This document shows, piece by piece, positions 1,312-10,716 of a DNA stretch of 11,254 bases. The stretch's first letter is position 1. Each line of letters opens with the position of its first letter. The stretch is from Oscillospiraceae bacterium (lineage in GTDB: Bacteria; Bacillota; Clostridia; Oscillospirales; Acutalibacteraceae), in contig CADBOL010000055.1 in assembly GCA_902796295.1 (NCBI GenBank), positions 1 to 11,254 of the forward strand. Reading direction: 5' to 3'. The notes under the pieces are model-generated. The model was not told the origin of the DNA, searched no databases, and was given only the letters and a program-made list of their open reading frames with translations. Position numbers and translations under genes: made by a program.

Positions 1312-1968
1312 ATGATTAAGATATCACCTTCTGTTCTCGCTAGTGATTTTTCACGACTCGGAGAAGAATCAATTCTCATGAAAAACAGCGGAGCTGACTG
1401 GCTTCATCTTGATGTTATGGACGGACATTTCGTTCCGAATATCAGTTTCGGCGCTCCTGTCATAAAATCAATCAGAGGTCTTACTGATCTGGTTTTTGAT
1501 GTTCACCTGATGATTTCGGATCCTTTTAAATACGCTGAAGATTTTGCATCAGCCGGGGCGGATATAATAACTTTTCATTATGAGAGCAATTCCGATGTTT
1601 CCGATACTCTTGACAAGATTCACTCTCTCGGCTGCAAAGCCGGATTGAGCATAAAGCCGGGAACACCCGTCGAATCTGTTTTTCCTTTTCTTGATAAAAC
1701 CGATATGGTTCTTGTTATGACAGTTGAGCCCGGATTCGGCGGTCAGTCATTTATGTTTGATATGATGGATAAAGTTAAAATACTTAAGAGTGAAATTGCC
1801 GGCCGTTTTCTTGATGTTGATATTCAGGTTGACGGCGGTATCAACGAAGAAACTGTCAGAATAGCTGCCCGGGCCGGAGCGAATGTTTTTGTTGCCGGCA
1901 GCGCGGTTTTCAAATCCGATAACCCGGCGGCAATCATTGAAAGATTAAGAAATAACGCTTTGGAATAA
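1312..1968 (+). CDS. rpe: Ribulose-phosphate 3-epimerase
   Basis: This 218-residue protein interconverts D-ribulose 5-phosphate and D-xylulose 5-phosphate in the pentose phosphate pathway, as a cytoplasmic metal-dependent TIM barrel. Its length matches the family. The family signatures are all present: SPSVLASDF at residues 6-13 with substrate-contacting Ser7, LHLDVMDGHFVPN at 31-43, VHLM at 64-67, VMTVEPGFGGQ at 135-145, and QVDGGI at 172-177. The metal ligands His32, Asp34, His65 and Asp174 are intact, and Asp34/Asp174 are the acid-base pair. The start is backed by GGAG 8 bases upstream and the promoter at 1252-1280. It is the first gene of a long plus-strand run; in many Firmicutes rpe instead follows rsgA and the PASTA kinase gene, so its position ahead of Rnf-like genes is atypical. 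Confidence 0.97.
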   Translation: MIKISPSVLASDFSRLGEESILMKNSGADWLHLDVMDGHFVPNISFGAPVIKSIRGLTDLVFDVHLMISDPFKYAEDFASAGADIITFHYESNSDVSDTLDKIHSLGCKAGLSIKPGTPVESVFPFLDKTDMVLVMTVEPGFGGQSFMFDMMDKVKILKSEIAGRFLDVDIQVDGGINEETVRIAARAGANVFVAGSAVFKSDNPAAIIERLRNNALE

Positions 1969-1987
1969 TTAATTATACAGTTTCCGC

Positions 1988-1992
1988 GGAGG
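1988..1992 (+). promoter_or_regulatory. Ribosome binding site that points to a TTG start for the RnfD-like gene
   Basis: GGAGG at 1988-1992 lies only 1 base before the ATG at 1994, too close to work with it. It lies 7 bases before the in-frame TTG at 2000-2002, an ideal distance. The likely translation start is therefore TTG at 2000; using ATG 1994 would add only two residues. Confidence 0.65.
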
Positions 1993-1999
1993 AATGGTT

Positions 2000-2962
2000 T
2001 TGGCATCTGATTCTAAAAATGTAAGTAAAAAATCAATATATGTCTTCGGCGACTATTTGCTTATGCTGATATTTCCCTGTGCTATATCGGTATGGTGTTA
2101 CGGTGCCGATGCGCTCAGAACACTCGGCGTTTCTGTTGTTACGGGTTTTGTGTTTGATTTTATTCTGAGTCTTATCATTTACAAAAAATATTTTGCCGCG
2201 GACCTCAGTACTCTGTGTTCGAGTATAATGATAGCGCTTATGATGCCCTCGGATATACCGGCATATATACCCGCATTTGCCTGCGGCTTTGCCGTTGCGG
2301 TAATCAAGATTCCGTTCGGCGGAGGTATGAAGGCGCCTTTTGTTCCGGCGGCTTCGGGCTTTGCGTTTGTTTCCGTTTGTTTTAAGGATGCGGTATTTAA
2401 CTATACATCCGGGCGGGAATCAATGTATCCCGTATCACTCGCTTCTCTGCTTGCTCAGGGCAGGTCTATGAAGATGACAACGGGAAATTTCCTTGACATT
2501 ATAATCGGAAATGTCAGAGGTCCCATGGGTACAGGCTGCATACTTGTTTTGATTGCATGTATGGTGTTTCTGCTGATAAGAAGAAGGGAATCTTTGATTT
2601 CTTCAGCCGGTTTTCTTGCCGCCTGTCTTGCTTTTTCCATTGTATTTCCGCGCTCGGAAGGGTCTCTTCTTTCATCGGCTGTTCTTGAATTGTCAGCAGG
2701 CTCACTGTTCTTTGCAAGTGTATTTCTTCTTACCGATTTTGCCACATTGCCGAAATACAGGAGAGACAAGCTTGCTTACGGTATTTTCTGCGGCATAATC
2801 TGTATGGTTATGAGACGATTGGCTGCTTTTGAAGAGCCGGTTTGCTTTGCAGTGCTTCTCGCAAACGCATTCAGTCCTCTGCTCGACATATTTACTAACA
2901 GGATTATGCGTTTCTTTTCGTTAAATTCCCGCAGGAAGGAGGTCTTTACCGATGCCGGATAA
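2000..2962 (+). CDS. RnfD/NqrB-like membrane protein, divergent
   Basis: About 320 residues with eight to ten hydrophobic segments, the size and shape of RnfD, the sodium/proton-pumping flavin subunit of the Rnf ferredoxin:NAD oxidoreductase. Family landmarks in order (TTG-start numbering): a DLST stretch near 68, FGGGMKAPFVPA at 106-117 (usual form G-x-N-P-F-N-P-A), GNVRGPMG at 170-177, FLLTD ending at Asp246 (usual ATDP), and a C-terminal E-x-V-x-F-A-x-L-L-x-N segment ending PLLD near 296. The FMN attachment motif S-G-A-T of true RnfD/NqrB is not present; by hand alignment SLAS at 146-149 falls there, so Ser replaces the flavin-carrying Thr and the Gly is lost. RnfE- and RnfA-like genes follow at once, but no rnfC, rnfG or rnfB is adjacent. 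Family membership is fairly secure; a conventional electron-transfer role is doubtful. Confidence 0.8.
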   Translation: MASDSKNVSKKSIYVFGDYLLMLIFPCAISVWCYGADALRTLGVSVVTGFVFDFILSLIIYKKYFAADLSTLCSSIMIALMMPSDIPAYIPAFACGFAVAVIKIPFGGGMKAPFVPAASGFAFVSVCFKDAVFNYTSGRESMYPVSLASLLAQGRSMKMTTGNFLDIIIGNVRGPMGTGCILVLIACMVFLLIRRRESLISSAGFLAACLAFSIVFPRSEGSLLSSAVLELSAGSLFFASVFLLTDFATLPKYRRDKLAYGIFCGIICMVMRRLAAFEEPVCFAVLLANAFSPLLDIFTNRIMRFFSLNSRRKEVFTDAG

Positions 2963-3749
2963 ACCTTCTTTCAGTAAAAAGTTTCTTGTTACCGCAATCA
3001 GGAACAATCCCGTTCTGTTTCAGTGTGCAGGTCTCTGCCCGGTAATTGCCGGCACTTCCACTCTGAAAGACTCTCTTTTTATTGCTGCGGTTTTATCAAT
3101 TGATCTTGTATTATCGGCGATTGTTGCCAGCGCTCTTTTGAAGAAAATACCGAGGTATATAAGAATAGCTGTTTACCTTGTTCTCGGTCTTGCAATCGTT
3201 TACCCGATATTATGGTTTATTGAAAACCGGACTCTTGTTGAGATTACTCTCGGAATCAGGATTATAATCCCGATTATTGCGGTTAATTCGCTGACTGCCA
3301 TGCACTGTGAAACTTACTCGGTCAAACATCCTGCAGGCGATTCTTTTATTACTTCTCTGTGTGCCGCTCTCGGTGCATCCGGTGTGATTGTTATTTGCGG
3401 TTTATTGCGTGAGATTATCGGCAAAGGGTCAATCGGCGGTTATTCACTTGAAATGAATACCACTCTTGAAACCATGTCAATGCCGTTTGGCTGTCTTATA
3501 GTTTTGGGATTTCTTGCAGCTCTTCTTAAGAGTTTCAGGAGAACGCCTGTAAGATATGCTTCCGATAACACAGATAATCCGCTTCAGCCTGAAGAAATAG
3601 CTCTTGATATTGAGCATGAGGAGCCTCCCGAATCGGTTGATCTTGTAATTGCCGATTATGAGGAAATTGATTCGATCCTTTCATCAACAGATGAATTCCT
3701 GAAATCTCTTACAAGCTCCTCAGATGAATGGGGAGGTGATCGGGAATGA
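2952..3749 (+). CDS. RnfE/NqrD-like membrane protein with an acidic C-terminal tail
   Basis: A 265-residue protein whose first ~195 residues match the six-helix RnfE/NqrD fold: RNNPVLFQCAGLCP at 17-30, LGIRIIIPIIAVNS at 100-113, LLREIIGKGSIGG at 151-163, and PFGCLIVLGFLAALL at 178-192. In RnfE, one Cys of the GLCP motif and one of a VNC motif bind the intramembrane [2Fe-2S] cluster shared with RnfA. Here Cys29 (GLCP) is kept but VNC reads VNS, Ser113; Cys119 is nearby but out of register. Residues ~200-265 form an acidic, probably cytoplasmic extension rich in Asp, Glu and Ser that I do not expect in RnfE. The start has AGGAGG 9 bases upstream and overlaps the RnfD-like gene by 11 bases, implying translational coupling. 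The function is inferred to be part of a membrane complex with the neighbouring D- and A-like proteins. Confidence 0.82.
   Translation: MPDKPSFSKKFLVTAIRNNPVLFQCAGLCPVIAGTSTLKDSLFIAAVLSIDLVLSAIVASALLKKIPRYIRIAVYLVLGLAIVYPILWFIENRTLVEITLGIRIIIPIIAVNSLTAMHCETYSVKHPAGDSFITSLCAALGASGVIVICGLLREIIGKGSIGGYSLEMNTTLETMSMPFGCLIVLGFLAALLKSFRRTPVRYASDNTDNPLQPEEIALDIEHEEPPESVDLVIADYEEIDSILSSTDEFLKSLTSSSDEWGGDRE
3732..3740 (+). promoter_or_regulatory. Near-perfect Shine-Dalgarno inside the end of the RnfE-like gene
   Basis: GGAGGTGAT at 3732-3740 matches the 16S rRNA anti-Shine-Dalgarno over nine bases and lies 5 bases before the ATG at 3746. It encodes the last residues of the RnfE-like tail. With the 4-base ATGA overlap of stop and start, it predicts strong, coupled translation of the RnfA-like subunit. 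Confidence 0.8.
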
Positions 3750-4330
3750 AAATTCTGACTCAGCTTCTCATTACCGCTCTGTATACAATATTTGTTCAGA
3801 ATATTGTTATGACTTCGGGACTCGGCATGAGTGAAGTTATGAGAATATCACCCCGTCCGCGTACTTTTGCCAAATTCGCTGTTATGATTTCGGGCTTTTC
3901 CGTTGTTACAAGTGTACTGTGTTATTTTATAACATCCAAGTCGTCGTCTATTGACTCTTATGCCGCCAAGGCTGTAGTTTACGGCGCTGTTCTCGGCTCG
4001 GTATATCTTATTGCTGCATTTTTCACCAATCTTATTGTAAAAGATAAGGAAAATGTAGCTGTTCTCGGCATTGCGGCTCTGAATACGCTCGTTTTTGCCG
4101 TTCCTTATATCAATGATTCAGCTGCCTATTCCCTGATTGACTGTTTAGCTTCTGGTTTCGGAGCGGGATTTGCTTTTGTCCTTGCGGCTGCTTTAATCGG
4201 AAGCGGAGCGAGACTGATTGAGAAGAATAAGCATATTCCTGCGGTATTTAAAGGTACTCCTGCAATGTTTTTCTATGTTGCAATGATTTCTCTTGGATTT
4301 ATCGGTTTTACCGGCACTCAATTATTCTGA
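3746..4330 (+). CDS. RnfA/NqrE-like membrane protein lacking both cluster cysteines
   Basis: At 194 residues with about six membrane segments, this has the length of RnfA (about 190). The C-terminal signature is clear: IPAVFKGTPAMF at 164-175 and ISLGFIGFTG at 181-190, matching the usual V-P-x-x-F-K-G and M-S-L-A-F-x-G-F. The N-terminal segment FVQNIVMTSGLG corresponds to the usual L-V-N-N-x-V-L-x-x-x-L-G, but the following L-C-P is replaced by M-S-E, so Ser29 stands where the cluster Cys should be. The second Cys site (usual T-N-C after LGI) is also gone: after LGIAALNT there is no Cys. The only cysteines, 59 and 133, are elsewhere. It cannot hold its half of the [2Fe-2S] cluster in the known way. 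The gene overlaps the RnfE-like stop by 4 bases, so the two are probably made together as a heterodimer, as in Rnf and Na+-NQR. Confidence 0.8.
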   Translation: MKILTQLLITALYTIFVQNIVMTSGLGMSEVMRISPRPRTFAKFAVMISGFSVVTSVLCYFITSKSSSIDSYAAKAVVYGAVLGSVYLIAAFFTNLIVKDKENVAVLGIAALNTLVFAVPYINDSAAYSLIDCLASGFGAGFAFVLAAALIGSGARLIEKNKHIPAVFKGTPAMFFYVAMISLGFIGFTGTQLF

Positions 4331-4338
4331 GGTTTAAT

Positions 4339-4617
4339 ATGAAAAAAAGTAATGTCAAACGTCCATTGAAGCCGTCGCAAAGGGAAAGTATTACTGAGTT
4401 TACTTCCGGTTTCGGTAACGAGAGCTCCTACAGCAGCAGGATACTCGCAAGAAAGATTATTCGTATTATACTGATTGCTGTTTCCGTTCTTTTGATTGTT
4501 TTTTGCGGGTATTTCTTTACCGAGCTTCTGATTTCAATTTCAGAGCTTCCCGCCGTTATCCGTATAATTCCGGAGGATTCATTAAAATGGATTTTATTCC
4601 CTTCAATTCAAGGCTGA
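4339..4617 (+). CDS. Small single-pass membrane protein, function unknown
   Basis: I do not recognise this 92-residue protein. It has a basic, Ser-rich N terminus of about 38 residues (KKSNVKRPLKPSQRES at the start), one strong hydrophobic segment at roughly 41-68, and a short C-terminal part of about 24 residues. By the positive-inside rule the N terminus should be cytoplasmic. GAGG 6 bases before the ATG supports the start. It begins 8 bases after the RnfA-like stop and overlaps the start of the GH13 gene by 31 bases, so it sits in the same transcript. It occupies a place where a fourth small membrane subunit of the Rnf-like set could be, but it has no flavin or metal motif. It could equally belong to the membrane-anchored genes further on. 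The frame is supported by its ribosome site and membrane-protein composition. Confidence 0.65.
   Translation: MKKSNVKRPLKPSQRESITEFTSGFGNESSYSSRILARKIIRIILIAVSVLLIVFCGYFFTELLISISELPAVIRIIPEDSLKWILFPSIQG
4572..4576 (+). promoter_or_regulatory. Ribosome binding site fixing the GH13 start
   Basis: GGAGG at 4572-4576, 10 bases before ATG 4587. It supports starting the GH13 enzyme there rather than at the upstream in-frame TTG 4503, which has no Shine-Dalgarno and would add 28 non-conserved residues inside the preceding gene. Confidence 0.75.
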
Positions 4618-6437
4618 CTTATCATAAATATCCTTTCGGTGCTGTCAGAGTCAATACCGAGGTTATATTCCGTTTTATTTTACCTGCAGGATTCTGGTGC
4701 AAAGGCGCGTCTCTCATAACAGTACACGATGACAAGACCGAATCGGCGCCCTTTTATTTCGAGCACAATCAGCAAAACGGAGAAGCCTGGTGGAGATGTT
4801 CATACACACCCAAAGAATCCGGATTATATTTTTATAAAATTAAACTTGATACCGGCTTCGGCGATGTTTTTATTACCAAAGCTGATTTATCACTGGGGAC
4901 TTTTTCGCCTGACGGTGACTTGTTTCAGCTTACAGTTTATTCGGATGATTTCAAGACACCCGATAAAATCAAGGGATCGGTTATTTACCAGATTTTTCCC
5001 GATCGGTTTTGTTATTCTGGTAAAAAGAAGGAATCACCGGGAAATGACAGAATAATACGTGATGACTGGGGCTCTGAACCGTTATGGGAGCCCGATGAAG
5101 ACGGCAGAATAACAAAATATGATTTCTTTTGCGGAGATTTTTCCGGAATCGAAAGCAGACTCGATTATATAAAATCTCTAGGTGTAGGATATATCTATCT
5201 CAACCCGATCTTTTCCGCTGCTTCAAATCACAGATATGATACAGCCGATTATGAAAACCCCGATTATCTTTTGGGCACAAAAGAAGATTTTGCTCATCTG
5301 TGCAAATCGGCCGCAGGAAAAGGAATTGATATTATTCTTGACGGCGTATTCAGCCATACCGGTTCTGACAGTAAGTATTTCAATAAAGAAGGAAACTACG
5401 GTACCGGCGGTGCTTATAATGATAAAGAATCACCGTATTTCAGCTGGTATAAATTCAAAAAATGGCCGGATGAATATGAGAGCTGGTGGGGAGTTGATAT
5501 CCTTCCCGAAATCGATGAAACCAATGACAGTTATATTAAATATATTGAAACCGTTCTTGAGGAATGGCAGAATCTCGGCGCCGGCGGATGGAGACTTGAT
5601 GTTGCAGATGAGCTGCCGGATAAATTCCTTGACGCATTGAGAATCAAGGTCAAATCTGTTGATAAAGATGCCGTGATTATCGGAGAAGTGTGGGAGGATG
5701 CCTCCAATAAAATAAGCTACGGTGAACGCAGAAGATATCTCGAAGGCAGACAGCTTGATTCTGTAATGAATTATCCTTTTGCAAACGCCATGCTTGATTT
5801 TGCGATAACAGGCATAGCAGAAGGCTTCAATGATAAGATAGCCGAAATATGCGAAAACTACCCGAAATGTGTTGTTGACTGCCTGATGAATCATATCGGT
5901 ACTCACGACACATGCAGAGTTTTAAACAGACTGGGCACTCTGGATAATTACGAGAGCAGCAATCTTGAAAGATATAAAGGCGGTCTTGATAAAAATCAGC
6001 GTGAATCTGCTGTCAGACTGCTTAAAATGCTTTCTTCGGTTCAGTTTACTCTTCCCGGTGTTCCTTCCGTATATTACGGAGATGAAGCCGGAGCCGACGG
6101 GGGAGTTGATCCTTATAACAGAGGTTGCTATCCTTACGGAAAAGAAGATGAGGGTCTTTTGGCTCACTATCGTCTTCTCGGTAAAATCAGACATGATCAT
6201 CCCGCTTTTATTGACGGGGATTTTATTCCTGTTTCTTCTGTAATGGGCTGTGTATGTTTTATGAGAGAAGGCAGGGGAGAAAGAATTATCACTGTTGCCA
6301 ACAATAATTCCCACCCTATTGATTATGTTTTGCCTTATGATGGTTTCTTATCATTGACCGGCAATGATCCCGAGGGCAAAACGCTTTTTGTCGACAGGGA
6401 AAAAGCTGAAATACTATGGATGAAATGTGATTTATAA
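4587..6437 (+). CDS. GH13 alpha-glucanase, neopullulanase/cyclomaltodextrinase type
   Basis: This 616-residue enzyme should hydrolyse alpha-1,4 (and perhaps alpha-1,6) links in maltodextrins, cyclodextrins or pullulan. There is no signal peptide, so it is cytoplasmic. Residues 1-~120 form a beta-rich N-terminal domain in the place of the CBM34-type domain of this group. The GH13 barrel starts with YQIFPDRF at 134-141. Conserved regions follow: region I with Asp252 and His257 (DGVFSHTG); a W-G-x-x-x-L-P-E-I-D region near 301-310; region II GWRLDVADE with nucleophile Asp338; region III GEVW with acid/base Glu367; and region IV THDT with Asp441. GVPSVYYGDEAG lies near 491-502, and a beta-sandwich end domain occupies about 550-616. 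All catalytic residues are present. The combination of YQIFPDRF and the LPEID-type region suggests subfamily GH13_20 or a close relative. It probably serves maltodextrin or internal glucan breakdown, though no transporter genes are beside it. Confidence 0.93.
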   Translation: MDFIPFNSRLTYHKYPFGAVRVNTEVIFRFILPAGFWCKGASLITVHDDKTESAPFYFEHNQQNGEAWWRCSYTPKESGLYFYKIKLDTGFGDVFITKADLSLGTFSPDGDLFQLTVYSDDFKTPDKIKGSVIYQIFPDRFCYSGKKKESPGNDRIIRDDWGSEPLWEPDEDGRITKYDFFCGDFSGIESRLDYIKSLGVGYIYLNPIFSAASNHRYDTADYENPDYLLGTKEDFAHLCKSAAGKGIDIILDGVFSHTGSDSKYFNKEGNYGTGGAYNDKESPYFSWYKFKKWPDEYESWWGVDILPEIDETNDSYIKYIETVLEEWQNLGAGGWRLDVADELPDKFLDALRIKVKSVDKDAVIIGEVWEDASNKISYGERRRYLEGRQLDSVMNYPFANAMLDFAITGIAEGFNDKIAEICENYPKCVVDCLMNHIGTHDTCRVLNRLGTLDNYESSNLERYKGGLDKNQRESAVRLLKMLSSVQFTLPGVPSVYYGDEAGADGGVDPYNRGCYPYGKEDEGLLAHYRLLGKIRHDHPAFIDGDFIPVSSVMGCVCFMREGRGERIITVANNNSHPIDYVLPYDGFLSLTGNDPEGKTLFVDREKAEILWMKCDL

Positions 6438-7291
6438 TGAGTAAGAATGTAAGGTTCAGGACCGATTCAAAATCAAAGAATTACGGGCAGTACAGATTAT
6501 GGGCTCTGATAGCTCTCGTATTGGTGTTTGCTGTCATTGTTTCAAGCTATCTGATATTGAAAAACAATGATTTTGATTTCAGGGCTGCGCTCGGCGGAGA
6601 TCCCGAAGCTACGGCGCAGGAAGATGAAGTCAATACTTTAAGCGCTGAAAAATCCGACAGATACTTTTTATTCTGGTGTAATGATTCCGTCAGCGGCGAC
6701 CTTCAGTTTTTCTGGATTACAAAAATATCTCAGCCGAAAGGTAAATATACAATTCTTTCTCCTTCGCTTGACGAGAATATGGATTATAAAGGAACATATA
6801 TGACTTTCGGCAAAATATTTTCATTATACGGTGACGAGGGGCTCTGTGAGGCAGCCGAAAAGTATTGCAATATTAAAATAGACCATCGCATAGGCTCCGA
6901 TACCGAGCAGTTCAAACAGACTGTCAATTATTTCGGCAGTGTTACTGTAGATCTTTCCGAGTCTATAGAGTACAGAGGCAGATTTAATCTTATTCTTATG
7001 AAGGGCAGCAATACTCTTAAAGGAGATACACTTTATAAGTATCTCGTTTATACCAATTTCATTGAGGGTAACTCGCAGAAAATCCGCTGCTCGGTTCTTG
7101 AGCAGATTCTAATAAATGTTATCAACCCGGAAAACGCCGTTAGTCTTGATAAGATATATTCACGCCTTGCAAATACAATTAAGACTGATGTTACTATAGT
7201 AGGTTTTTCGGCGATGAAGGGATATCTTACTCAGGTATTCAACACGGGTATAAACGAAACTGTTTATGCGGAGAAACCGTCACAATTATAA
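6437..7291 (+). CDS. Membrane-anchored LytR-CpsA-Psr-like protein, active-site arginines apparently lost
   Basis: A 284-residue protein with a basic cytoplasmic N terminus, one membrane anchor at about 20-42 and an extracytoplasmic domain from about 75. The domain order resembles LCP glycopolymer transferases: TFGKIFSLYGDEGLCEA at 123-139 (the usual K-I-N-x-A-x-x-x-G-G region), CNIKIDHRIGSDTEQFK at 144-160, VNYFGSVTVDL at 163-173 (usual V-D-x-x-G-G-V-x-V-D-V), and LMKGSNTLKGDTLYKYL at 187-203 (usual x-G-x-x-x-L-x-G-x-x-A-L-x-Y). True LCP enzymes carry arginines in P-R-D and Y-V-R-x-R motifs that bind the lipid pyrophosphate. Here the second motif aligns to Y-L-V-Y-T (202-206) and the first to S-P-S-L-D (108-112), so those arginines are missing. 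The start overlaps the GH13 stop by one base with no strong Shine-Dalgarno, implying translational coupling. The family call is moderate; a non-catalytic binding or scaffold role is inference. Confidence 0.6.
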   Translation: MSKNVRFRTDSKSKNYGQYRLWALIALVLVFAVIVSSYLILKNNDFDFRAALGGDPEATAQEDEVNTLSAEKSDRYFLFWCNDSVSGDLQFFWITKISQPKGKYTILSPSLDENMDYKGTYMTFGKIFSLYGDEGLCEAAEKYCNIKIDHRIGSDTEQFKQTVNYFGSVTVDLSESIEYRGRFNLILMKGSNTLKGDTLYKYLVYTNFIEGNSQKIRCSVLEQILINVINPENAVSLDKIYSRLANTIKTDVTIVGFSAMKGYLTQVFNTGINETVYAEKPSQL

Positions 7292-7309
7292 TCTTTTGGG
7301 GATATCTAA

Positions 7310-8479
7310 ATGAAAAAAGGCACTCGGCTGTTTCTTTTATTCTTATCAATATTGCTTGTTGCAGCTGCATTCTTTCAGATAAGATCCAGTTTTCCCGATA
7401 TAAGACTGCCGCTTATCAGCAGATATATAGGCAATGTGAAAGAATCGCCAAACGGAAGCAGATATAAAACTTATTTTTTCCAGCTTGCTCCTGTTGAGAA
7501 GCAGGCGTATAATTTAATACTTGATGAGATTTATGATATGCCCGAAAGGATACTTGTTCCCGATTTGTCTGAAAACCAGCTCGACAGAGTATTCAAATCT
7601 CTTCTGAATGATAATCCTGATCTTATTTTCCTCGGCAGAAAGTGCCGCCTTAACAGTGAGCTCTGGAATACATTTATTTCTTTTGATTATATAATGACAA
7701 AAGAAGAATATGATAAGGCCCGCAGCGAAATGAGTTTAAAAAGAGATCTGATTATCGAGTCTCTTTCCGATCTGACCGATGAATTCAAAACAGAGCTTGA
7801 AATCCATGATTATATAATCGGGCATTGCGCTTATGAACTTGAGGAGGATGTCTATTCCTATTCGTCTGCATACGGCGCTCTGGTTGACGGCAAGGCCGCT
7901 TGCGAAGGGTATTCAAAAGCCGCTAAATATGTTTTTGATAAAGTCGGAATCGAAAGCATCCTTGTCAGCGGCAAAGCGAGCGGTGACGGACGCGGTGACG
8001 GAGATCATATGTGGAATATTGTAAAAATCAACGGCAATTATTACCATCTTGATTTAACCTGGGATGACCCGGTAAGCAGCAATTCATCCTCTTCCATGAG
8101 TGTGCATACTTATTTCAATCTTACAGATGATGCCATAGGAATTAACCACAGCGATTTTTCCTATTCTCCGGGATGTACGGCAACTGATGAAAACTACAGC
8201 ATTAAAAACGGACTCAGATTTGATAATTATTCGGAAAAGGATAATGACAAACTCCGTTCGCTGATGCTTAAGGAGTATAATTCCGGTGAAAGAAATATTC
8301 AGATAAGTTTTGTTAATAAAGAGTCATACGATAAAGCATTCAAGGCGCTGATTACAAATAAAAAGATTTATAATGTTCTGGGGAATGTCAAATCCAACAG
8401 AGGCAACACTTTTTCGGAGGCAGTTTCCGGATACTATGCGGATGACAGTTTCTTTACTTTGACATTTATATTCAGGTGA
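7310..8479 (+). CDS. Membrane-anchored or secreted transglutaminase-like cysteine protein
   Basis: A 389-residue protein with a basic start and a hydrophobic segment at about 7-24 that serves as signal anchor or signal peptide; no lipobox Cys is seen. The transglutaminase-like core occupies about 160-280 and shows an intact triad: Cys198 in GKAACEGYS, His233 in [10 protein letters not shown], and Asp248 in HLDLTWDDP. In bacteria such domains are usually found in extracellular proteins and act as proteases or peptide-bond remodelling enzymes, less often as crosslinkers. Residues ~50-155 form a helical region before the core, and ~290-389 an unrecognised C-terminal part ending in a beta-like [14 protein letters not shown] lies about 7 bases before the ATG, 18 bases after the LCP-like stop. 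Together with that LCP-like protein it suggests a cell-envelope pair. The substrate cannot be told from sequence. Confidence 0.85.
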
Positions 8480-8484
8480 TAATT

Positions 8485-9048
8485 ATGGACAGAGAAAAAA
8501 TAGAAAAAGCGGTCAGAGATATTCTTTCCGCTGTAGGAGAAGATCCTAACAGACCCGGTCTTGTTGAGACTCCCGCGAGAGTCGCAAGAATGTATGAAGA
8601 AATATTTTCCGGTCTTGACGATAATCCGGAAAGACATCTGAAATTGTTTGATGAAGGCAGCGAAGAGATGGTTATAGTCAGGGATATTCCTCTCTATTCA
8701 ATGTGTGAGCATCATCTTCTTCCGTTTATCGGAAAAGCCCATATCGCTTATATTCCTTCTGACGGAAAAGTTATAGGTCTTTCCAAGCTTGCGAGAATTG
8801 TTGATTCTTTCGCTAAAAGACCTCAGCTGCAGGAACGTCTTACAATGCAGATTGCAGATTTCCTTGATGAAAGTCTGCATCCGATGGGAGTGGCTGTTGT
8901 AATTGAAGCCGAACATCTCTGTATGACTATGAGAGGGGCAAGGGCTTCGGGCTCTCAGACCAGGACTTCCGCTCTCAGAGGAATAATGAGAAATGATTCC
9001 AAGACAAGGGGAGAGGCGCTTTCTCTTCTTACCGGAGGCAGAAACTGA
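8485..9048 (+). CDS. folE: GTP cyclohydrolase I
   Basis: The first enzyme of pterin/folate synthesis, converting GTP to 7,8-dihydroneopterin triphosphate plus formate. From ATG 8485 it has 187 residues, the usual length for bacterial type I enzymes. Zinc ligands are Cys74 and His77 in [10 protein letters not shown] and Cys146 in [11 protein letters not shown], with His144 also conserved. [10 protein letters not shown] (98-107), [10 protein letters not shown] (111-120) and the [16 protein letters not shown] segment are typical. An earlier in-frame GTG at 8476 lies inside the upstream stop region without a ribosome site. AGGTGAT at 8474-8480 is well placed for 8485 instead and spans the TGA of the preceding gene, so translation may be coupled. 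It opens a four-gene folate block. The short gap before it contains no riboswitch. Confidence 0.97.
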
Positions 9049-9824
9049 TGTATCCGCAGATAATGGGAATATTGAATTACACACCTGATTCTTTTTCCGA
9101 CGGCGGCAAATATTTTGATCCCGCTCTTGCTGCGGAACATGCCGCGGATATGGTGAATCAGGGCGCTGATATTATTGATATCGGCTGTAATTCGACAGGA
9201 CCGGGTATAAGTATAATTTCATATGATGAAGAGCTAAAAAGGCTTGAAAGTGTGTTGCCTGCTGTTATTGACAGCGTTGAGGTTCCCGTCTCGGTTGACA
9301 CTTTTTATGCGGAATGCGCAGAGTATTCACTTAAAAACGGGGCAAAAATCATCAACGATGTCAGCGGTATTTTCAATACACGGATAGCCGGACTTGTAAT
9401 GCAATATGATGCCGATTATATTGTAATGCATAATTGCGGCGGTGCGGATAAAACAGGAAACTATCCCGAAGGTGTTGTGAGTGCCGTCAATTCATTTTTT
9501 GATTACTGTATCGGCGAAAGTATAAAAATCGGTATGCCTTCTGAAAGGCTGATACTTGATCCCGGATTCGGATTCGGTAAATCACATGAGGATAATTATA
9601 TCCTTCTTAAAAATATCGGTGAAATAAAACATAAAGGATTCAGACTGCTTGCGGGTATTTCTAGAAAGAGATTTATAAGAGAAGGATCTCCCGAAAATGC
9701 TGATTTTGCTACCTGCGCAGCCGATACATATGCAGTGCTGTCCGGAGCGGATATTATCAGAGTACATAATGTTTTCGCTGCCAGTGAATTGAGAAGAGTA
9801 ATAAACGGTATACGGGGAAAATAA
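9048..9824 (+). CDS. folP: Dihydropteroate synthase with an altered pyrophosphate-site motif
   Basis: Joins 6-hydroxymethyl-dihydropterin pyrophosphate to p-aminobenzoate, giving dihydropteroate; it is the target of sulfonamides. The 258 residues form the expected TIM barrel: MGILNYTPDSFSDGG at 6-20, SVDT at 82-85, IINDVSG at 101-107, MH at 127-128, DPGFGFGK at 171-178, GISRKRF at 203-209 and RVHN at 238-241. Oddities: the usual loop motif D-I-G-G-E-S-T-R-P-G reads DIGCNSTGPG (44-53), replacing G-E with C-N and the pyrophosphate-contacting Arg with Gly51; the pABA-side M-H-M-Q-G reads MHNCGG; and R-V-H-D-V reads RVHNV. Genome context (folE before, folB and folK after) supports a true FolP. 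Its start overlaps the folE stop by one base, with GGAGG 9 bases upstream. Confidence 0.93.
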   Translation: MYPQIMGILNYTPDSFSDGGKYFDPALAAEHAADMVNQGADIIDIGCNSTGPGISIISYDEELKRLESVLPAVIDSVEVPVSVDTFYAECAEYSLKNGAKIINDVSGIFNTRIAGLVMQYDADYIVMHNCGGADKTGNYPEGVVSAVNSFFDYCIGESIKIGMPSERLILDPGFGFGKSHEDNYILLKNIGEIKHKGFRLLAGISRKRFIREGSPENADFATCAADTYAVLSGADIIRVHNVFAASELRRVINGIRGK

Positions 9825-9825
9825 G

Positions 9826-10185
9826 ATGGATAAAATAATTGTAAAAGGTCTTAAAGTGTTTGCCTATCACGGTGTAAATCCCGAGGAAAAAATCAACGGG
9901 CAGAATTTTATTCTTGATATAACTGCTTATATTGACCTGACTAAGCCTTGTATCACGGATAAACTTTCCGATACAGTCAGCTATGCCAAAATAATAAAAT
10001 CCGCCAAAATGATTTTTACCGAGCAAAAGGATGATCTGATAGAAAGAGCCGCAATGCGCGTTGCCGACGGTCTTTTCAAGGAGTTTCAGAAACTGCGATC
10101 GGTTACGGTTTGCGTAAAAAAACCAGAAGCGCCGATAGATGCCGATTTTGAATATACGGCTGTAGAAATCACTGTTGGAAAATAA
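9826..10185 (+). CDS. folB: Dihydroneopterin aldolase
   Basis: Cleaves 7,8-dihydroneopterin to 6-hydroxymethyl-7,8-dihydropterin and glycolaldehyde; the enzyme is a small tunnelling-fold octamer in the cytoplasm. Its 119 residues are typical. Recognisable parts are VFAYHGVNPEE at 11-21 with the pterin-pocket Glu21, DTVSYAKI at 49-56 with Tyr53, LIERAA at 71-76 with the pterin-anchoring Glu73, and VKKPEAPIDADF at 97-108 with the catalytic Lys (Lys99). It starts one base after the folP stop and uses a GGGGA site within the end of folP. It sits between folP and folK, as in many Firmicute folate operons. Confidence 0.96.
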   Translation: MDKIIVKGLKVFAYHGVNPEEKINGQNFILDITAYIDLTKPCITDKLSDTVSYAKIIKSAKMIFTEQKDDLIERAAMRVADGLFKEFQKLRSVTVCVKKPEAPIDADFEYTAVEITVGK

Positions 10186-10197
10186 TCGGAGGATATT

Positions 10198-10716
10198 ATG
10201 AATAAAGCGGTTATTGCGTTGGGTACAAATATGGGTGACAGAATAGGCAACCTCAATCTTGCTCTTCGAGCCATTTCAAGACTGCCTAACGTCAGAATAG
10301 TTGCCGGATCCAAAGTATATGAAACCGATCCCGTCGGGATTACCGATCAGAATAAGTTTTACAATGCGGTTGTTCTTGTTGAAACCGGGGTATCACCTCT
10401 GAATCTGTTGGGCAGCTGTCTCGGAATAGAGGCGGCAATGGGGAGGATCAGAACTGTTAAAAACGGAGCGAGAATTATAGATCTTGACCTGCTTCTCTAC
10501 GAGAATTTCAAATGTGAAACTTCTGAACTGACGCTTCCTCATCCGCGTATGCTTGAAAGAGCTTTTGTTCTCAGACCTCTTTCGGATATTTTCCCCGGTG
10601 ACAGAGCGCTCGGATTGCTTTATTCTCCGTATCTCAAAGAGCTTGACGACGCGGGGATACAGATTACCGATTATGAATTGATTATTCCCGAGCAGGAGAA
10701 TTATTATGATATGTGA
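10198..10716 (+). CDS. folK: 6-Hydroxymethyl-7,8-dihydropterin pyrophosphokinase
   Basis: Transfers pyrophosphate from ATP to 6-hydroxymethyl-dihydropterin, making the FolP substrate. At 172 residues it is slightly longer than the ~160 of the E. coli enzyme. The motifs are complete: ALGTNMGDR at 7-15, SKVYETDPVG at 38-47, FYNAVV at 54-59, MGRIRTVKNGARIIDLDLLLY at 81-101 with Mg-binding Asp95 and Asp97, and LPHPRMLERAFVLRPL at 113-128. GGAGG at 10188-10192, 5 bases before the ATG, supports the start. It lies 12 bases after folB. Its last 11 bases overlap the start of the small Cys-rich gene downstream. Confidence 0.96.
   Translation: MNKAVIALGTNMGDRIGNLNLALRAISRLPNVRIVAGSKVYETDPVGITDQNKFYNAVVLVETGVSPLNLLGSCLGIEAAMGRIRTVKNGARIIDLDLLLYENFKCETSELTLPHPRMLERAFVLRPLSDIFPGDRALGLLYSPYLKELDDAGIQITDYELIIPEQENYYDM

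Follow-up and report, generated by a model that had tools for sequence, protein, structure and literature searches.

A divergent, rpe-linked RnfD-E-A membrane trio without the complete [2Fe-2S] cluster site in an Oscillospiraceae bacterium and its relatives

The closest described systems are the Rnf complex (RnfABCDGE), a Na+/H+-translocating ferredoxin:NAD+ oxidoreductase, and the related Na+-NQR. In the sections of PMC11889175 and PMC12174285 cited here, RnfA and RnfE are described as a Na+ path of the alternating-access type, which switches with the redox state of the iron-sulfur cluster; contrary to earlier proposals, PMC11889175 places the ion path in RnfA/E. Na+-NQR is held to stem from an rnf duplication with loss of rnfB, with NqrA having lost the cofactors of RnfC (cited part of PMC4014512), while in NQR the cluster and the flavins are still present and the complex remains a redox pump (cited part of PMC12174285). 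Here, we analysed a stretch of 11,254 nucleotides from an Oscillospiraceae bacterium (contig CADBOL010000055.1, hereafter the window), in which three adjacent genes encode RnfD-, RnfE- and RnfA-like membrane proteins. The original prediction for this DNA regarded the trio as a paralogous complex built on the Rnf scaffold and distinct from a full Rnf, which our data support. The prediction did not name the key feature, the loss of cluster cysteines, and the canonical electron path has very probably been lost in the trio.

All three genes lie on the + strand. The D-like subunit (1994..2962, 322 aa, 10 predicted transmembrane segments) overlaps by 11 bases with the gene for the E-like subunit (2952..3749, 265 aa, six transmembrane segments), which in turn overlaps by 4 bases with that for the A-like subunit (3746..4330, 194 aa, six transmembrane segments). 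The proteins score well above the Pfam cut-offs for the Rnf/Nqr families, i.e. PF03116 for D (E 1.9e-53) and PF02508 for E (7.2e-25) and A (3e-15). The scores against the NCBIfam models are far below the cut-offs (113 bits vs 207 for rnfD, 74 vs 213 for rnfE and 43 vs 229 for rnfA), hence the trio consists of divergent relatives. For each of the three proteins the rnf models outscore the nqr models, and a profile search of the PDB with E up to 0.001 matched exclusively Rnf and NQR subunits. The structural model of the D-like protein (predicted local distance difference test, pLDDT, 86.8) has RnfD (9eri_D) as best PDB match with a TM-score of 0.79; the model of the E-like protein (pLDDT 75) comprises six transmembrane helices with breaks in helices 1 and 4 and best matches RnfE of Acetobacterium woodii (9eri_E, TM-score 0.86 by target length). 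The loop charges, evaluated by simple hydropathy, suggest an N-in/C-in orientation of the E-like and N-out/C-out of the A-like protein.

As predicted, the trio stands without rnfB, rnfC and rnfG at this locus: hidden Markov models (HMMs) of RnfC, RnfG and RnfB gave no match among the window open reading frames of at least 60 aa; likewise, no NqrF-like domain was found among the nine window proteins scanned. The host genome (G000; 2.04 Mb, 344 contigs) contains four PF02508 and two PF03116 places, which correspond to the window trio and a canonical set. The latter is a complete rnfC-D-G-E-A-B operon on contig C5 with its own D, E and A genes; an ApbE-like gene, named by eye only, is located upstream of it. 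The bin is 79% complete, and an RnfC-like gene without the RnfC_N domain could still exist elsewhere in the genome. A split or misassembled canonical operon was ruled out as origin of the trio, because the full operon is found elsewhere and the neighbours of the trio are kept in relatives.

For comparison, 64 divergent loci, some of them truncated, and 71 canonical loci including E. coli K-12 were used. The label canonical or divergent was assigned from the two RnfA cysteines, therefore the RnfA cysteine counts given below are in part a matter of definition. This does not apply to the RnfE sites, the rpe linkage and the trees, for which the label plays no role, and no locus keeps RnfA Cys25 alone. 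Two loci with an A-like gene but neither E nor D (L085, at a contig end, and L194) were excluded from the E and D counts. A tree of joined E and A sequences with 68 rows (17 canonical; 11 long-branch or doubtful divergent rows excluded) separated divergent from canonical sets with 100/100 support. The same split was obtained in a quick tree of 86 rows (24 of the 71 canonical and 62 of the 64 divergent loci) and, with a Shimodaira-Hasegawa-like approximate likelihood ratio test (SH-aLRT) value of 100, in a tree of D alone with 94 rows; NQR sequences were included in no tree. Hence, the window trio falls outside canonical Rnf, and in the quick tree it belongs to a clade of 25 rows without RnfC (99 SH-aLRT), in the following called the window's group. 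Lying beside rpe, grouping with the divergent sets and having no RnfA Cys25, it fits the rpe-linked divergent clade.

The four cysteines that ligate the intramembrane [2Fe-2S] cluster are present in all 71 canonical loci. Among divergent loci, RnfA Cys25 was found in 0/64, RnfE Cys108 in 0/62, RnfA Cys113 in 9/64 and RnfE Cys25 in 31/62, and none of the 62 loci having both E and A holds all four. The replacements at RnfA Cys25, RnfE Cys108 and RnfA Cys113 are mostly Ser or Thr. In the window, the cluster positions read C, S, S and T, namely Cys29 and Ser113 in the E-like and Ser29 and Thr114 in the A-like protein. Rnf of A. woodii was inactive when its cluster cysteines were mutated, according to the cited sections of PMC11889175, from which the residue roles used here are taken. 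Searches of open-licence full texts gave no report of an rpe-linked or cysteine-less Rnf.

Residues related to electron transfer partners are changed as well. The RnfB-contact residues K32 and R154 of RnfA occur in 2/25 and 0/25 loci of the window's group (canonical 64/71 and 71/71), and of the riboflavin ligands of RnfD, N123 is found in 0/25 and D249 in 18/25. The D-like protein of the window has Val117 in place of the riboflavin Asn and keeps Asp248; its FMN-acceptor column holds Ser148 within V-S-L, the flanks of the A-(T/S)-P motif for covalent FMN being degraded. Residues of the former ion path are kept in the window's group: RnfE R67 in 25/25, E115 in 23/25 with Asp in the other two, N107 in 22/25, Val, Ile or Leu at the V106 column in 25/25 and RnfA N112 in 25/25. 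Besides Cys29, the window E-like protein keeps Arg71 and Glu120, and the A-like protein keeps Asn113. For A. woodii, the cited sections of PMC11889175 report Na+ resolved near the R67-E115 pair, no growth of the R67A, T110G and E115K variants and impairment of E115Q.

The genes also show signs of being maintained. The gene order is the same in relatives down to about 25% identity with open frames, and comparison of the window with four relatives gave pN values of 0.09-0.29 and pS values of 0.66-0.76 for D, E and A (proportions of nonsynonymous and synonymous differences, quoted in place of dN/dS as synonymous sites are near saturation). Judged from these sequences, the trio is under purifying selection. 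Four named relatives are metagenome bins with the titles Ruminococcaceae bacterium or Clostridia bacterium, and sheep omasum is the source of one bin.

The cluster site is gone, yet selection seems to keep the trio, which therefore probably serves ion movement or cell-surface organisation instead. Since it still has the scaffold and some of the ion path but not the electron path, we favour a redox-independent conduit. Specifically, we give an even chance to a reading in which a duplicated Rnf complex lost canonical electron transfer and its membrane core, the trio, acts as an alternating-access conduit for ions or solutes. The A-like and E-like proteins would form an inverted pair as RnfA/E do, which acts as a rocker-switch in Rnf. 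Their central site, without the cluster, would be polar, with Cys and Ser contributed by E and Ser and Thr by A; the Arg-Glu pair, near which Na+ is bound in A. woodii Rnf, is retained. The A/E pair could conduct cations or small solutes, with gating or driving force supplied by the ion gradient or by a cytoplasmic protein that binds the E tail. An anchored partner, which at 24/64 loci has a DUF4015 domain, may tie the conduit to the cell surface, and the D-like subunit would remain as a structural partner. It is conceivable, with somewhat less than even confidence, that this represents the first non-redox branch of the Rnf/NQR superfamily, in which a cluster-free RnfA/E rocker switch became a redox-independent ion or solute carrier, joined by a cytoplasmic partner on the tail and by a glycan-active protein at the surface.

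Several observations weigh against this reading. Transport by the trio, as by the other members of the divergent clade, is inferred. The E-like protein retains one cluster cysteine and has gained the conserved Cys119 (window 3306-3308), which occurs in 24 of 36 RnfC-less loci and in none of the 71 canonical ones (Ala in 71/71); therefore, thiol or metal chemistry is possible, and Cys119 and Cys29 could form a thiol pair. The E115A variant of A. woodii grew as wild type (PMC11889175, cited sections), hence the retained Glu is weaker evidence than the retained R67. RnfA E88, belonging to the same ion-pair network, is found in 0/25 loci of the window's group, and the T110 column is Ala in 24/25. 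The FMN-acceptor column is Ser in 52/62 divergent but also in 11/32 canonical loci, so that loss of FMN is not proven, and the acceptor change was dropped as proof of redox loss. Furthermore, RnfC-bearing loci are mostly without E115 (Glu in 3/26) and keep the riboflavin Asn in 20/26, and nine RnfC-less loci outside the window's group retain this Asn as well. The RnfC-bearing loci thus show the reverse tendency to the window's group, one shared function of the clade is not required, and the divergent clade may hold two functional types.

The presence of RnfC also qualifies the expectation that relatives conserve the trio without B, C and G. It held for G and B, which were found at 0/64 divergent loci by the same HMMs that detected G in 66/71 and B in 64/71 canonical stretches. 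For C, it held in the window's group, where no RnfC-like gene was found at the locus, and at 38/64 loci altogether, but an RnfC-like gene is present at the other 26 (L090-L093, L095-L102, L105, L185-L191, L193, L195, L196, L202-L204); in L036, L094 and L192 the sequence stops shortly before D, so that an RnfC-like gene may have been cut off. On the 68-row tree the presence of this gene changes at least three times, one change possibly resting on the truncated contig L094. RnfC was probably ancestral in the divergent clade and lost more than once; the change counts cannot separate gain from loss, and since canonical Rnf has RnfC, it is natural to assume an ancestor with RnfC and later losses.

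Alternatively, the trio might transport nothing and act as a scaffold or signalling platform in the membrane, in which the core joins the E tail, a cytoplasmic partner and an anchored DUF4015 envelope protein; we consider this somewhat unlikely. The E-like protein of the window ends in a tail (3537..3746, + strand), for which model, charge and hydropathy predict an acidic linker of low confidence (pLDDT 42-52 in blocks of residues 201-240) followed by a helix at residues 236-257 (pLDDT 52-71). Its net charge is -17, and it is placed on the cytoplasmic side because of the C-in orientation of E. In favour of a platform, E-like proteins of the window's group differ widely in length (258-697 aa), mostly with a net acidic part beyond residue 200 (20/25). 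A short hydrophobic-acidic motif occurs in 14/25 tails compared to 0.46 expected from shuffled tails, the pattern having been written post hoc after reading the tails and not matching the window's own tail. At 24/64 loci, A is followed by a gene for a DUF4015-type protein with a length of 300 aa or above, the domain being confirmed by Pfam in 7/7 long proteins scanned, and shorter forms occur at eight loci, one of them cut by the contig end. In two genomes, a gene for a CAP-domain protein lies between the D-like and E-like genes (L078 5418-6191, L081 11109-11891). However, the former ion path still contains Arg, Glu/Asp and Asn in the window's group, which exceeds the obvious needs of a scaffold.

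The anchored partner has a candidate in the window itself. The gene for a 92-aa membrane protein (4339..4617, + strand) begins 9 bases past the end of A, and its product scores 21 bits (3.7e-5) against an HMM built from the DUF4015 proteins of relatives. By eye, the product resembles the cytoplasmic and transmembrane part alone of these proteins, including an N-terminal motif, as if the outer domain had been lost and the anchor kept. The 92-aa protein looks like a further subunit. Hence, the earlier statement that only the membrane core is left has to be extended by the cytoplasmic E tail of the window's group and probably by this small protein.

It is also possible, though quite unlikely, that the trio is still a redox system, which borrows canonical RnfB, RnfC and RnfG or uses flavin or thiol electron transfer, with RnfC-like partners where present. 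A canonical set is usually available for borrowing: 38 of 41 genomes, picked for strong matches to the divergent type, have four PF02508 copies, i.e. a second E/A pair, and G048, with its divergent locus at a contig end, has three. The RnfC-like proteins keep both CxxCxxCxxxC (4Fe-4S) motifs in 13/13 aligned cases. The glycine-rich segment GxGGxxFPTxxK, which presumably serves FMN/NADH, is missing in all 13 and present in the two canonical RnfC proteins of that alignment. The retained 4Fe-4S motifs, the riboflavin ligands at RnfC-bearing loci (N123 as above, D249 in 22/26), the D249 residues retained in the window's group and the two cysteines of E speak for this reading, and the 26 RnfC-bearing loci are possibly a second, still redox-active type. 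Against it stand the incomplete cluster sites throughout the clade, the inactive cysteine mutants of A. woodii, and the loss of RnfB-contact residues and of the riboflavin Asn in the window's group. Moreover, two genomes, G051 (L092) and G103 (L095), have just two PF02508 copies, both divergent; no canonical E/A and no RnfG match were found there, their set being a divergent C-D-E-A, and the best RnfB-model matches of the two genomes (41 and 43 bits) cover just the ferredoxin half of the model. This argument for a redox-independent conduit is weakened by two facts: both genomes carry an RnfC-like gene, and in G364, a genome with a canonical set, RnfB is also below the RnfB-model cut-off with 63 bits.

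Finally, the trio might be a remnant of an rnf operon that decays after duplication, as B and G are missing from all 64 loci and C from 38; this is most improbable, given the open frames, pN far below pS and the gene order held in distant relatives.

The surroundings of the trio agree with the original prediction in Pfam and open reading frames: rpe lies upstream, the small membrane protein and a GH13 enzyme downstream, all on the + strand within window positions 1312-6437. The rpe gene for ribulose-phosphate 3-epimerase (1312..1968, + strand, PF00834, 1.1e-73) is present at 55/64 divergent loci, some of those loci being truncated, and at 39/64 a mecA gene, encoded on the other strand, separates rpe from the rnf-like genes, for example in L069, L071, L072 and L074-L078; mecA was not found in L009-L012, the closest relatives of the window. 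In the window's group, rpe or mecA directly precedes D in 25/25. At locus L107, 7.6 kb of upstream sequence contain no rpe and no RnfC-like gene. This linkage was set aside as functional evidence, as it may be plain vertical synteny; rpe is probably a syntenic anchor of the divergent clade, a subunit role being unlikely. The GH13 alpha-amylase-like enzyme (4587..6437, + strand, PF00128, 9.9e-48), whose start ATG at 4587 was picked from start positions in relatives, overlaps the 92-aa gene and is regarded as a neighbour of the trio with no subunit role assigned. Further downstream (6437-10716), genes in the same direction encode LCP-family and transglutaminase-like proteins, followed by a folate cluster whose genes were assigned by eye as folE, folP, folB and folK.

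The distribution of the divergent type was analysed with a profile built from 18 divergent A proteins, which weak divergent forms outside the order could escape. In the window's family, 53 of 150 genomes gave a match of at least 123 bits, followed by a gap down to 112 bits; the matches around 112 bits that were read are canonical RnfA, and the loci read for 49 of the 53 genomes, including the window, are all without RnfA Cys25. In a sample of 245 genomes from the order, 15 genomes from three other families reached at least 124 bits; nine of these loci, plus G310 at 115 bits, were read, and 10/10 are divergent. Nothing outside the order exceeded 114 bits in the class (291 genomes) and phylum (249 genomes) samples, and 23 loci from the lower score range of the class sample, 21 of them outside the order, all keep the four cysteines. 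As a marker, the score gap separates the types cleanly within the family (123.4 bits for the lowest divergent match, 111.9 for the one below it) and fails outside of it, where G171 is canonical at 121.4 bits and G310 divergent at 115.1 bits. The G171 locus (L201) has a short E-like gene of 134 aa in the fetched stretch, for which the PF02508 search reports one in-frame TGA.

The divergent clade represents a natural test by which the parts of RnfA/E needed for electrons can be told from those needed for ions, a distinction under debate. Moreover, genes annotated as Rnf in such genomes may be unrelated to energy conservation and would then mislead metabolic models.

Compared to known systems, the D-like subunit shares a related fold with urea and ammonium transporters, urea transporters following next after Rnf and NQR in Foldseek with TM-scores of 0.38-0.52; in this comparison by fold alone, it is clearly nearer to RnfD. 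Na+-NQR (NqrABCDEF) is, like the trio, a paralogue of Rnf, but the trio differs from it by the absent cluster site and by scores favouring rnf over nqr models. The trio resembles Rnf itself in having homologous D, E and A in the order D-(G)-E-A, the same folds of D and E and an inverted A/E topology suggested by the charge pattern. However, the trio is without B and G genes and, in the window, a C gene at the locus, its cluster cysteines are gone, and it has instead the E tail, the anchored partner and its position beside rpe.

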